NCBI RefSeq assembly: GCF_030165005.1
Contig: NZ_JASNNW010000001.1
Span: 372,001-436,000 of the forward strand
Direction of reading: 5' to 3'
Source: Blastococcus capsensis
GTDB lineage: Bacteria > Actinomycetota > Actinomycetes > Mycobacteriales > Geodermatophilaceae
DNA length: 64,000 nt
Part shown: positions 38,781 through 42,002 of the stretch, piece after piece
Layout: each line of letters begins with the position of its first letter
Position numbering within the stretch: the first letter of the stretch is position 1
Program-made: the position numbers and the translations under genes
Notes under the pieces: generated by a model
What the model was told of the DNA's origin: nothing
The model's input: only the letters and a program-made list of their open reading frames with translations
The model's database searches: none

Positions 38781-40070
38781 TCAGCTGCGGGTGGTTGTCG
38801 GCAGGGGGAACCGCCACAACGCCCCGCTGCTTGCATCGGCCTCGACGCCGGTGTCGACCATCTCGAACTGGCCGAAGTCGAGCACGTACACCCACCCTTC
38901 GGCGGCGTCGATGCGCACGTCGATGGGCCGGCGGACCGGCCCCGGGGCCAGCGGGTGCAGCGTCCACGCGGACGTGTCGACCCTCGCGATGCTGCGGCCC
39001 ACGCGCGGACCGCTGGGCGCCGTCATGGGGACCTCGTCGCCGAACAGTGCGACGTACAGATCCCCGGCGTGCTCGCCTGCCTCGGGGACGACGTCGAACT
39101 TGACGGCTGCGACGTGCGGCGGGAACTGCAGCAGCGGCTCCTCGGGTGGCGGCAGCTGGTCGTGGTCGATCAGCAGCATCGTCGGCGGCTCGCCGCGCTC
39201 GGGCAGAAATCGCTCATCGGTGACGGGGATGCCGCCGATGAAGTCCGGCCAGCCGTACCAGCGGCCCGGGTGCACGTCGAACAGCAGGTCCGGGGCCTGG
39301 CCGACGGCGCGACTGCCGCGGTCGTCGGCGCCCTGGTCGACCGCGAGCAGCCGGCCGTCGGGCAGGAATCCCAGGCCGTAGGCGTTGCGCAACCCCCAGG
39401 CGACGAGCTCGAGATTGCTGCCGTCCAGGTCGCACCGCATCACTGCTGCAGTCGCGGGCAACCCGGCCGGCACCCGCTGCCGGTGCTGTGACTCCGTCGC
39501 GAAGGGGCTGAACCCACCCGTCGTGGCTCGCGCGTGGGGGTCGCTGCTCGTCGGGTCGGCGGTGGTGACGTTCACCCCGGCGAGGGTGACCGGGTAGCCG
39601 GGGAGGTCGTGGCCGTGCGGCAGCCGGCGCAGCCAGCCGATCGCGTAGGCGTCGAGCCCGACGATGCCCAGGTTGGTCAGCGCCCCCTGGCTGAAGTAGA
39701 GCTTGTCGTCCGGCCCGATCACCGCCATGTTGGTGTGGTAGTTGCCGGGGCCGGGCAGGTCGTCGAGCACGGTCGTGCGCGTGCCGTCCAGGCCTAGTCG
39801 GGTGATCCGGCCGGGGTGCCCACCTTCGGACACGTAGAGCCCGCCGGCGTGCAGCGTCAGGCCGTTGACCGGGGCGCGCAGGTCCTCGGCCAGCAGTGTG
39901 CGGGAACCGGTCGGATCGACGCGCCACACCCGGCCGCCAGGGGGCGCGCCGGCGAACGGCAGACCGGACTCGGCGAGATAGAGCACTCCGCCCTCGCCGA
40001 GAGCGATGCTGGTCGGGAAGTGCCAGCCGTCGCCGACGAGCTCCCAGCCGTCCCGCTCGGTGGTCGTCAC
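38781..40070 (-). CDS. Beta-propeller protein (ScyD/ScyE or SMP-30-like)
   Basis: A 429-residue propeller: FPTSIALGEGGVLYLAESGL, VNGLTLHAGGLYVSEGGHPG, NLELVAWGLRNAYGLGFLPD, GRWYGWPDFIGGIPVTDERF, and a last blade DVRIDAAEGWVYVLDFGQFE. It resembles ScyD/ScyE family and sugar-dehydrogenase-like proteins. Unlike the neighbouring paralogue it lacks a membrane tail. GTG 40070 overlaps the stop of the upstream DedA-type gene by three bases, so it is the last gene of an operon that begins with the deiodinase-like selenoprotein. Substrate unknown. Confidence 0.82.
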   Translation of the reverse strand: MTTTERDGWELVGDGWHFPTSIALGEGGVLYLAESGLPFAGAPPGGRVWRVDPTGSRTLLAEDLRAPVNGLTLHAGGLYVSEGGHPGRITRLGLDGTRTTVLDDLPGPGNYHTNMAVIGPDDKLYFSQGALTNLGIVGLDAYAIGWLRRLPHGHDLPGYPVTLAGVNVTTADPTSSDPHARATTGGFSPFATESQHRQRVPAGLPATAAVMRCDLDGSNLELVAWGLRNAYGLGFLPDGRLLAVDQGADDRGSRAVGQAPDLLFDVHPGRWYGWPDFIGGIPVTDERFLPERGEPPTMLLIDHDQLPPPEEPLLQFPPHVAAVKFDVVPEAGEHAGDLYVALFGDEVPMTAPSGPRVGRSIARVDTSAWTLHPLAPGPVRRPIDVRIDAAEGWVYVLDFGQFEMVDTGVEADASSGALWRFPLPTTTRS

Positions 40071-40715
40071 GCGACTCCTTCGGTATTACGTCGTGTGCCT
40101 CGTCGTTCGATCAGGGTCGCAACCGCCCAGGTCGCTCCGGCCAGGAGCAGCACGAGCGCGAACACGACCACAGGGTCCGCCCACTCGGCCACGACCGAGC
40201 CTGCCAGCGCGTACAGCAGCGCCGCCGGGAGGCTCCCGACCATCGCGGCCAGTGCACTGCGCCCCCAGCCCAGCCGGCTCATCCCGGCGAGGATGACCGT
40301 CGTCTCGGCGAGCAGCGGAACCGGCCGGGTCACCACGATGGCGAGAACGCCCCATCTGTCGAGCAGTGCATCCGCCCGGCGACGCTGTTCGGCCGGGACC
40401 AGCCGATCGAGCCCGGCCCCGCCGCGACGACCGAGAGCGAAACCGACCAGGGCGGCGCCGAGGCTCCCTGCGATCGACAGCACCGTCCCGACGAGCGGGC
40501 CGAACACCGCACCGTGCGCGATCATCACCAGGCTCGAGGGCACCGGGAGCACGACATCGACCACCAGCAGACCGACACCGACCGCCGCCGCCGGAACGGC
40601 CTCCGCGCCACGGACGAGGATCGGTCAACAGCGGGATGCCCAGCGCCTCCACGAGGACGAACAGCACCGTGAACAGCGTCAGCAACCCGGTGACCACCGC
40701 CCAGTATCGACGCAT
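40067..40715 (-). pseudogene. DedA/VTT-type membrane protein with frameshift
   Basis: The N-terminal helix (MRRYWAVVTGLLTLFTVLFV) and the rest are in different frames. The rest has a VTT/SNARE-associated domain: LPVPSSLVMIAHGAVFGPLV, LGAALVGFALGRRGGAGLDR, VLAIVVTRPVPLLAETTVIL, SLPAALLYALAGSVVAEWAD. The break is between about 40600 and 40630; two added bases (or one removed) restore a protein of about 216 residues. VTT proteins move lipids between membrane leaflets. The motif VTRPVPLLAET fits that family. It sits between the selenoprotein and a beta-propeller gene, all minus strand and tightly packed. Confidence 0.75.
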
Positions 40716-40750: not shown

Positions 40751-41653
40751 TCAGCGTCGCCGGTCGCTCGACCGCCGAGTGGCGACGGCAAGGAAGGAGA
40801 GGGCCAGGAGGCCGAGCCCGATCTTGGCAGCGGCCGGCAGCGGCTCCGCGCGCAGGGCGAGCGGCCCCAGCACCGGCTTGGCCTTGTTGCCGGCCAGGCT
40901 CAGCGTGGCGGCCCCGAAACCTGCGGTGTCGTATTCGCGCACCGCACGCTTCCCCCCGCGCTGTGGTCCCCGGATGCCGTCGACGAAGGACGCGAACATG
41001 TGGGGCACCCGGTCGATCCCTCCGGCCACCGGGGCTCCGACGCCACCCTGGGACAGCAGCTCGTCGAAGGCGCGCTTCAGTGACGGGGCGTGCGTCCACA
41101 TGTTGTAGAACGCGACCCGGCCCTCGGCATCGATCAGGACCGACGGGTCGGCCATCTCCTGGGTGTACGCGCGATGCACCGTTCCCTCGTAGTCGTCGAC
41201 CAGCACGGGCCAGGTGATGCCCTCGAGCTGCTGGTACTCCTGCGCGGAGGCGACCTTCTCCTCGTAGCTGAGGTACCGGCCGCGCTTCTCGCCGGGGTGA
41301 GCCTGACGGATGATCACGTCGAGGAACTGGATCCGGTCGCCGTACCGGTCGTAGAGCTTCTTGACAGGCGCAACTGCACCCGTGGTGACCGGCTAAGTTC
41401 CGCTGCCGAAGTGGAGGAACACCGGGCGGCCACGCAGCGAGCTCAGCCGCACGGGGTCGCCCTCGGTCGACCGCAGCTCGAAGTCGGGGGCCTCGCTCCC
41501 CGGTCGCACTCCGTCGCCCTTCACCGACCGCCACATGTCGGCGAGCAGGTGCTTGGGCCGGAAGTGCTCGTAGTTGTACTCCGCCAGCTGCGCTGCGCTG
41601 CCGGCTGGGCTCCCTGCACCCAGGGACGTCGAGTCCCGCCTGCTGTCCGTCAT
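40751..41653 (-). CDS. Deiodinase-like redoxin, probable UAG-encoded selenoprotein
   Basis: A 300-residue thioredoxin-fold protein if codon 87, a TAG (41393-41395), is read through. Before it: PGSEAPDFELRSTEGDPVRL and PVFLHFGSGT. After it: PVTTGAVAPVKKLYDRYGDR, FLDVIIRQAHPGEKRG, WPVLVDDYEGTVHRAYTQ, PSVLIDAEGRVAFYNMW, and a C-terminal membrane helix with RRSSDRRR. The pattern FGSxT-[TAG]-P plus xxIxxAHP is that of iodothyronine deiodinases, whose catalytic selenocysteine occupies the TAG position. A SECIS-like hairpin follows at 41364-41383. The ATG at 41653 has GGAGGAGA. It heads an operon with a DedA-type and a beta-propeller gene. Likely a redox or dehalogenating enzyme; substrate unknown. 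A stop in a decayed Cys homologue is the alternative. Confidence 0.85.
41364..41383 (-). promoter_or_regulatory. SECIS-like hairpin for UAG recoding
   Basis: On the coding (minus) strand, nine bases after the TAG, the RNA ACGGGUGC-AGUU-GCGCCUGU forms eight base pairs with an AGUU loop. The loop G and U are at positions 22 and 23 counted from the U of UAG. In the E. coli fdhF SECIS the key apical loop G and U are at 23 and 24, and the upper helix starts 11 bases after the stop codon, as the core GGGUGC stem does here. SelB binds such loops to deliver Sec-tRNA. No experiment supports this copy. Confidence 0.7.
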
Positions 41654-42002
41654 CGCTGTCTCCTCCGTCGGGGGCACTCTGTCGCCGGTGCCTGACCTGC
41701 TCGGTCGCGGGCGCCGCTAAACCCGCACATGGGCGGCTCCGCCGAGGCGTCGATCGTGCCCGCTCCAGCGAGCGGCGTCGCCGATGGCGTCGACGTACTG
41801 CCTGCCGCCCTTGCTCCCGGCCGGAGTTCACGCGGCCGGCGCTCGCTCCACCCATCCGGCCGAGGGGACGCGGATGACCGCCGTCGCGGAGCCGGGCGTG
41901 CGGACTCGAGGGGGATCTGTCGATCTCTAGCTCCGACGCTAGATCGGGATAGACCCGGCGAGATCCCCCAGTCGGCGCCGCCGCGCCGCTAGCGTCGCCG
42001 CC
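41654..42002. other. Divergent promoter region of selenoprotein operon and holin-family gene
   Basis: About 350 bases between the divergent selenoprotein and phage-holin-family starts. No coding sequence was recognised. It contains dyad copy B (41924-41945) close to the rightward gene. Promoters for both directions must lie here. Confidence 0.55.
41924..41945. promoter_or_regulatory. CTAG dyad, copy B
   Basis: TCTCTAGC-N6-GCTAGATC, within a longer inverted repeat CGATCT...AGATCG. It is 57 bases before the phage-holin-family start, a normal place for an operator, and may also serve the divergent selenoprotein operon. Confidence 0.5.

Follow-up and report, generated by a model that had tools for sequence, protein, structure and literature searches.

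The gene P0001 of Blastococcus capsensis very probably encodes a selenoprotein in which selenocysteine (Sec) is specified by UAG, as judged from sequence comparison. The gene lies on the minus strand of the window (the whole stretch of 64,000 nucleotides that was analysed) and occupies a coding frame of 300 residues at 40751..41653, which reads through one TAG and ends at a normal stop. The TAG (41393..41395, minus strand) corresponds to residue 87 and, read from 41395 to 41393, is the sole in-frame stop ahead of the terminal stop of the gene. A GGAGGAG motif just 5' of the ATG (41660..41666, minus strand) is a likely ribosome-binding site. The minus-strand translation runs MTDSRR...FLHFGSGT-[TAG]-PVTTGAV...IIRQAHPGE..., and the plus strand in the same frame contains an unrelated stop. 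A sequence-only reading of this DNA had given coordinates that are correct, and had left the strand unstated. It had also placed QAHP 19-22 residues past the TAG, a distance that has to be revised, as the motif occupies residues 117-120, which are 30-33 after the TAG. Its observation that one frame passes through a single TAG with homology on both sides was confirmed by an identity of approximately 65% to relatives, which is alike 5' and 3' of the TAG. Each of four UGA-containing orthologues is identical to P0001 at 40-44 of 60 residues upstream of the TAG and at 99-104 of 157-159 downstream of it; these two parts of P0001 have GC3 values of 0.90 and 0.89, respectively. The protein contains no cysteine.

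The genome that contains the window (4.39 Mb, 51 contigs) harbors a tRNA-Sec gene with the anticodon CUA, which was the best match to the tRNA-Sec model (65.3 bits, gathering score 47); the second-best match, at 47.5 bits, is a serine tRNA. Directly downstream of the CUA tRNA-Sec are selA (PF03841, E 9.8e-97) and selB (TIGR00475, E 7.5e-85, above the cut-off), and on its other side is a selD-like gene, which was assigned from its AIRS domains and its position beside the tRNA. The search for selA, selB, selD, and a CUA tRNA-Sec that had been proposed with the sequence-only reading returned all of them, selD in the form of this selD-like gene. ARAGORN put the label tRNA-Pyl on every CUA tRNA-Sec scanned (e.g., L001:1501-1596). 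For annotation, this mislabelling of tRNA-Sec (CUA) is joined by the default reading of UAG-Sec genes, which truncates them at the TAG. At least four further genes with TAG at Sec-type sites are present in the same genome, including two formate-dehydrogenase-like genes with NQARI-TAG-HS (their matches to the formate dehydrogenase model are below the cut-off), an AhpC-like gene with DW-TAG-PYC at C14:177496 that has a counterpart in genome G008, and a deiodinase-like paralogue (P0003), which is 38% identical to P0001 and has TAG at the same column. A mechanical filter applied to 100 kb of the genome yielded 33 coding-like ORFs, 29 of which end in TGA and four in TAG. Because TAG also terminates genes, Sec insertion must compete with termination; these counts make UAG the rarer of both stops to borrow, which is a possible reason for its use.

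Relatives of P0001 were obtained in 4 of 112 genomes of its family at 1e-10 and in 12 of 396 genomes of its phylum at 1e-15 (own genome included in both counts), as well as in 4 of 39 genomes of the class of G438 and 6 of 400 genomes of the phylum of G507 (both at 1e-30). The contigs of named genomes gave 27 matched loci, many of which were distant ResA-type proteins. No relative was found in the viral contigs searched, and 12 plasmid records contained distant matches, none of which exceeded 33% identity. In close and middling relatives, the Sec column holds TGA, TAG, or Cys, with Asp in L148; the alignment of homologues that had been suggested as a check placed all of these at exactly the P0001 column. 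Random stops were also sought in the relatives, and none occurred elsewhere in the matched stretches. The orthologues of P0001 (56-67% identical) have TGA in all cases in which the column is covered, namely, G438, G465, and G284 (f19), G342 (f10), the Thermomicrobiales record L044 (G507), G604, G612, and G732; in a further orthologue, L075, the column is absent. A Modestobacter gene has TAG at the Sec column of P0001. In L012 (G004), a paralogue-type gene on the minus strand near 1824 is preserved in its 3' portion, starting with the CTAG at the Sec codon, and the sequence ahead of the Sec codon differs, with the breakpoint exactly at this codon, perhaps as a result of a mobile-element insertion.

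The Sec codon matches the anticodon of tRNA-Sec in all 14 genomes in which both were read. TGA occurs with UCA in 11 genomes (G070, G438, G342, G284, G437, G222, G481, G507, G604, G612, and G684), and TAG occurs with CUA in three (the B. capsensis genome, G085, and G004). The TAG gene of G004 is a fragment only, starting at the TAG, and G085 was taken as Modestobacter caceresii (L049) from an identical tRNA place. The comparison omits the genome of L053 (TGA), and a tRNA-Sec search in G465 and G732, both of which have TGA, found none. Within the family of B. capsensis, tRNA-Sec is present in 108 of 112 genomes, and the 30 loci whose anticodons were read comprise 22 CUA and 8 UCA, indicating that both codes coexist in one family. 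Seven of the eight UCA loci are in the genera g5, g6, and g7; the deiodinase-like gene of G070, a UCA genome of this family, has TGA. The eighth UCA locus is an extra copy in G058, a genome of the Geodermatophilaceae with two tRNA-Sec genes (L139:1169-1263 on contig C17 and L140:9833-9928). The CUA gene of G058 adjoins selA, selB, and selD, and the UCA copy (81.8 bits) stands alone on a 69-kb contig, which has a GC content of 0.62-0.68 near the tRNA and gave no match for selA, selB, selD, or six selenoprotein queries. Sec might be specified by both UGA and UAG in G058, or the UCA copy might be a contaminant. UGA, UAG, and Cys versions of one protein family, with the tRNA read for 14 Sec-bearing genomes, form a matched set that allows the change in codon meaning to be traced gene by gene.

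A putative bacterial SECIS, an 8-bp hairpin with an AGUU loop (41364..41383, minus strand), starts 12 nt after the first base of the TAG. The hairpin was examined in an alignment, gap-free past the codon, that combines nine Sec genes from the clade of P0001 with a more distant one, L149. In these 10 Sec genes, a six-pair stem joins positions 15-20 with 25-30 and encloses a loop with an invariant GU; these inner six pairs are present in 59 of 60 cells (98.3%), and changes on both sides were found in 4 of the 6 pairs. Stem covariation was 0.541 vs. 0.174 after shuffling, none of 500 shuffles reached 0.541, and the maximum was 0.200 when the stem was slid along the alignment. Some of the stem changes also alter amino acids, so that protein and RNA move together. 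The hairpin of P0001 taken alone was not significant, either in folding energy (z -1.97, with 10 of 200 shuffles as good) or in relation to synonymous recodings, 23% of which reached its pairing and 70% its energy. In the paralogue group, the stem is perfect and its register is displaced slightly. The TGA genes L053, L080, and L084 showed no pairing in either register, and L080 and L084 folded a hairpin of their own. Among the Cys relatives, 1 of 11 (L076) pairs at 6/6, in the second register. L148 (G862), a relative that is otherwise well conserved, has GAT (Asp) at the Sec/Cys site (L148:2131-2133, minus strand); its genome contains a tRNA-Sec with UCA, and its hairpin retains 6/6 stem pairs despite the lack of a Sec codon.

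In the mechanism that we propose, tRNA-Sec (CUA) would read UAG and would be charged with serine first, SelA would convert the tRNA-bound serine to selenocysteine, and SelB would deliver the Sec-tRNA to the ribosome. The short hairpin past the UAG would mark for SelB which UAG is to be recoded, and the remaining UAGs would terminate translation. Sec is almost certainly inserted at the UAG of P0001, to judge from the genomic evidence. The UAG-encoded selenoprotein proposed in the sequence-only reading is supported by the CUA tRNA, the selA/selB genes, and the TGA/TAG/Cys column, and it withstood every refutation test that was run, which were all of those suggested except resequencing.

The phylogenetic tree comprised 27 rows, from which the Sec column had been removed. 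It leaves out the duplicates L144, L045, L049, and L052, the fragments L075, L083, and L012, and the short distant L053 and L054, and it includes L148, which is absent from alignment A5. P0001 belongs to a five-row clade together with three f19 genes and one f10 gene, all four with TGA (support 97/98), and the nine-row clade around it adds L044, L145, L146, and L147 (support 100/99). The f19 group is considered Rubrobacter-like because the record L045, which is named Rubrobacter, has the same tRNA place as G284. The other TAG genes are far from P0001 in the tree, and a constraint that held the three TAG rows together was rejected (p-AU 3.07e-5). The most economical interpretation is two separate origins of TAG within the protein family. 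For the second deiodinase-like gene, the TGA form persists in a UCA genome of the family of B. capsensis. The position of P0001 amid UGA selenoproteins of Rubrobacter-like and Thermomicrobiota lineages, together with the separate change in the second gene, suggests transfer across the code boundary. It is fairly probable that P0001 was acquired from a UGA-using Rubrobacter-like lineage and then underwent a change of its Sec codon from UGA to UAG. The fuller history, in which a UGA gene passed from a Rubrobacter-like donor to a UAG host, the SECIS was kept, the codon changed from UGA to UAG, and the second gene was altered likewise and separately, is slightly favored. The change from UGA to UAG would require two base changes, and a stepwise path would lead through UAA or UGG, which would be Sec for neither tRNA. 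If the transfer is true, then a difference in Sec codon between two organisms does not prevent the passage of a recoded gene from one to the other.

The thioredoxin-fold domain of the protein (residues 48-203, approximately; 41045..41512, minus strand) contains an SxT-Sec-P active site and an RQAHP motif. The predicted structure (mean pLDDT 80.7, from a nine-row alignment) shows a thioredoxin fold with a helical, less certain C-terminal part that ends in a long hydrophobic helix, and a similar tail is present in most of the aligned relatives. This helix (residues 274-299, with an Arg-rich tail; 40757..40834, minus strand) is a probable membrane anchor, and none was seen N-terminally on inspection of the sequence and predicted structure; tethering to the membrane is likely. 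P0001 reached the cut-off of PF00578 (AhpC-TSA; 41.4 vs. 26 bits) and, marginally, that of PF00837 (T4_deiodinase; 27.5 vs. 27 bits), and it also matched Redoxin. The match to NF038285 (deiodinase family protein) was partial (175-324 of 347) and did not reach the cut-off (68.7 vs. 250 bits). Ser84, Thr86, Sec87, and His119 correspond to Ser127, Thr129, Sec130, and His162 of Dio2 with the same spacing, including 32 residues from Sec to His (87 to 119 in P0001 and 130 to 162 in Dio2). The proton relay of Dio2 is not kept, as Tyr157, Glu160, and His182 correspond to Ile114, Gln117, and Tyr127 (the last by alignment); the paralogue P0003 has kept the Tyr and Glu of the relay. For the second His of the relay, the numbering between Dio2 and Dio3 is one that we assume.

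Because P0001 has no Cys, resolution of its oxidised Sec would have to come from a thiol outside the protein. The product is most likely a membrane-tethered one-Sec peroxidase-like reductase, as far as its sequence can tell. In such a cycle, the thioredoxin-fold deiodinase-like product, which is probably tethered at its C terminus, would attack the substrate with its single Sec, and the outside thiol would regenerate it. A one-Sec peroxidase-like activity that uses mycothiol or thioredoxin as reductant is suggested tentatively, and reductive dehalogenation with either of these reductants is unlikely. The window neighbours of P0001, an NAD-glutamate dehydrogenase gene and a frameshifted VTT-domain gene, provide no functional hint, and no neighbour was shared between the window and nine ORFs around four orthologues. 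The VTT-domain membrane gene (window 40067-40715, minus strand) is split over two frames.

Insertion of pyrrolysine, or of another residue by a general amber suppressor, at the UAG of P0001 is highly improbable, even though ARAGORN labels the CUA tRNA as tRNA-Pyl. This tRNA scores above the gathering score as tRNA-Sec, the selA-selB pair adjoins it, and the P0001 column is occupied by UGA or Cys in relatives. The pyrrolysyl-tRNA synthetase model TIGR02367 gave a single weak match (22.7 vs. 178 bits), which is far under the cut-off, and a pyrrolysine system in the genome was therefore rejected. There is an equally slight chance that P0001 is a pseudogene or a product of sequencing error, with a Cys or TGA codon that was mutated or misread. 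The split in the neighbouring VTT-domain gene indicates that damage or error occurs nearby, but the 300 codons of P0001 contain no other stop or frameshift, and a matching CUA tRNA is present in the genome. The near equality of identity and GC3 on both sides of the TAG and the occurrence of TAG at the same column in the paralogue of this genome and in Modestobacter make a sequencing error or a decaying gene very unlikely.

With P0001 taken as a UAG-encoded selenoprotein gene, its origin and the nature of its product can each be read in another way. The gene might have descended vertically, with losses in almost all sister species and without any transfer. The sampling of one genome per species and the weakly resolved exact sister of P0001 within the five-row clade (75/67) leave room for this, and the GC content of the gene (0.70 vs. 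0.724 for the window) is not foreign-looking. However, the P0001 subtype occurs in 1 of 112 genomes of its own family (E 1e-10), which makes transfer from a UGA lineage with codon rewriting the simplest history, and P0001 is nested among f19, f10, and Thermomicrobiota genes in the tree; vertical descent is thus rather unlikely. The product, for its part, might be an ordinary thiol oxidoreductase of the ResA/TlpA or AhpC type that contains Sec and is not specially deiodinase-like. By itself, P0001 scores higher with AhpC-TSA than with T4_deiodinase, Foldseek with the predicted structure places ResA-type chains first (Dio3 at rank 14, Dio2 at rank 19), and the fold comparison indicates a thioredoxin fold without separating ResA from the deiodinases. 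On the other hand, T4_deiodinase and the NCBIfam deiodinase-related model each match all 19 members of the alignment at E 0.01 (all 19 match AhpC-TSA too), and P0001 retains SxT-Sec-P and the His at +32 and lacks a CxxC. The term deiodinase-like, as used in the sequence-only reading, holds insofar as the family profile, when compared with solved structures, finds Dio3 (2.3e-14) and Dio2 (3.6e-12) ahead of ResA (3e-9), and falls short in the Tyr, Glu, and second His of the relay, which are absent. An ordinary oxidoreductase remains a doubtful alternative to a deiodinase-like protein.

UAG-coded selenocysteine in the Geodermatophilaceae was reportedly described by Mukai in 2016. The sequence-only reading had cited a UAG-decoding tRNA-Sec from Geodermatophilus and Blastococcus, and UAG-coded Sec in the Geodermatophilaceae is indeed published, as extracts of PMC5330540 and PMC5133445 report the 2016 result, the latter with UAG as the Sec codon of Blastococcus. 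The published system, as far as these extracts describe it, resembles the one found here in its CUA tRNA-Sec, TAG Sec sites, formate dehydrogenase selenoproteins, and hairpin past the codon. The UAG-Sec genes named in the extracts of PMC5330540 are those for formate dehydrogenase, UGSC-motif proteins, and one AhpC of Blastococcus saxobsidens DD2; unlike P0001, none of those named there is deiodinase-like. The DD2 protein is AhpC/TSA-related and has a UAG-coded Sec, as does P0001. P0001 is nevertheless unlikely to be this published case, given that an AhpC-like TAG gene (DW-U-PYC) with a counterpart in G008 exists separately in the genome; the published case is probably this other gene, which is also present in the B. 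capsensis genome. That G008 is DD2, and that its AhpC-type TAG gene is the published one, is a guess.

Bacterial deiodinase-like selenoproteins of PF00837 are known with UGA (PMC2398784; PMC13188914, in the parts of both texts consulted). They are of the same kind as P0001, but are UGA-coded, and their motif is given as UxxC in the consulted part of a 2026 review (PMC13188914), whereas P0001 has UxxT and no Cys in the protein. Dio2 (9h48) and Dio3 (4tr3) share FGSxT-Sec-P, the His 32 residues after Sec, and the thioredoxin fold with P0001; the relay residues of Dio2 differ, and the hydrophobic anchor, which is a probable one in P0001, is C-terminal there and N-terminal in vertebrate deiodinases. 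A literature search, with supplements and the 2016 study outside its scope and sources represented by partial texts, returned no UAG-coded deiodinase-like gene. What looks new is the P0001 gene and its codon history, the UAG-Sec code variant itself being already known, and the small set of genes that are known to use UAG for Sec appears to gain, with P0001, one for a deiodinase-like protein.
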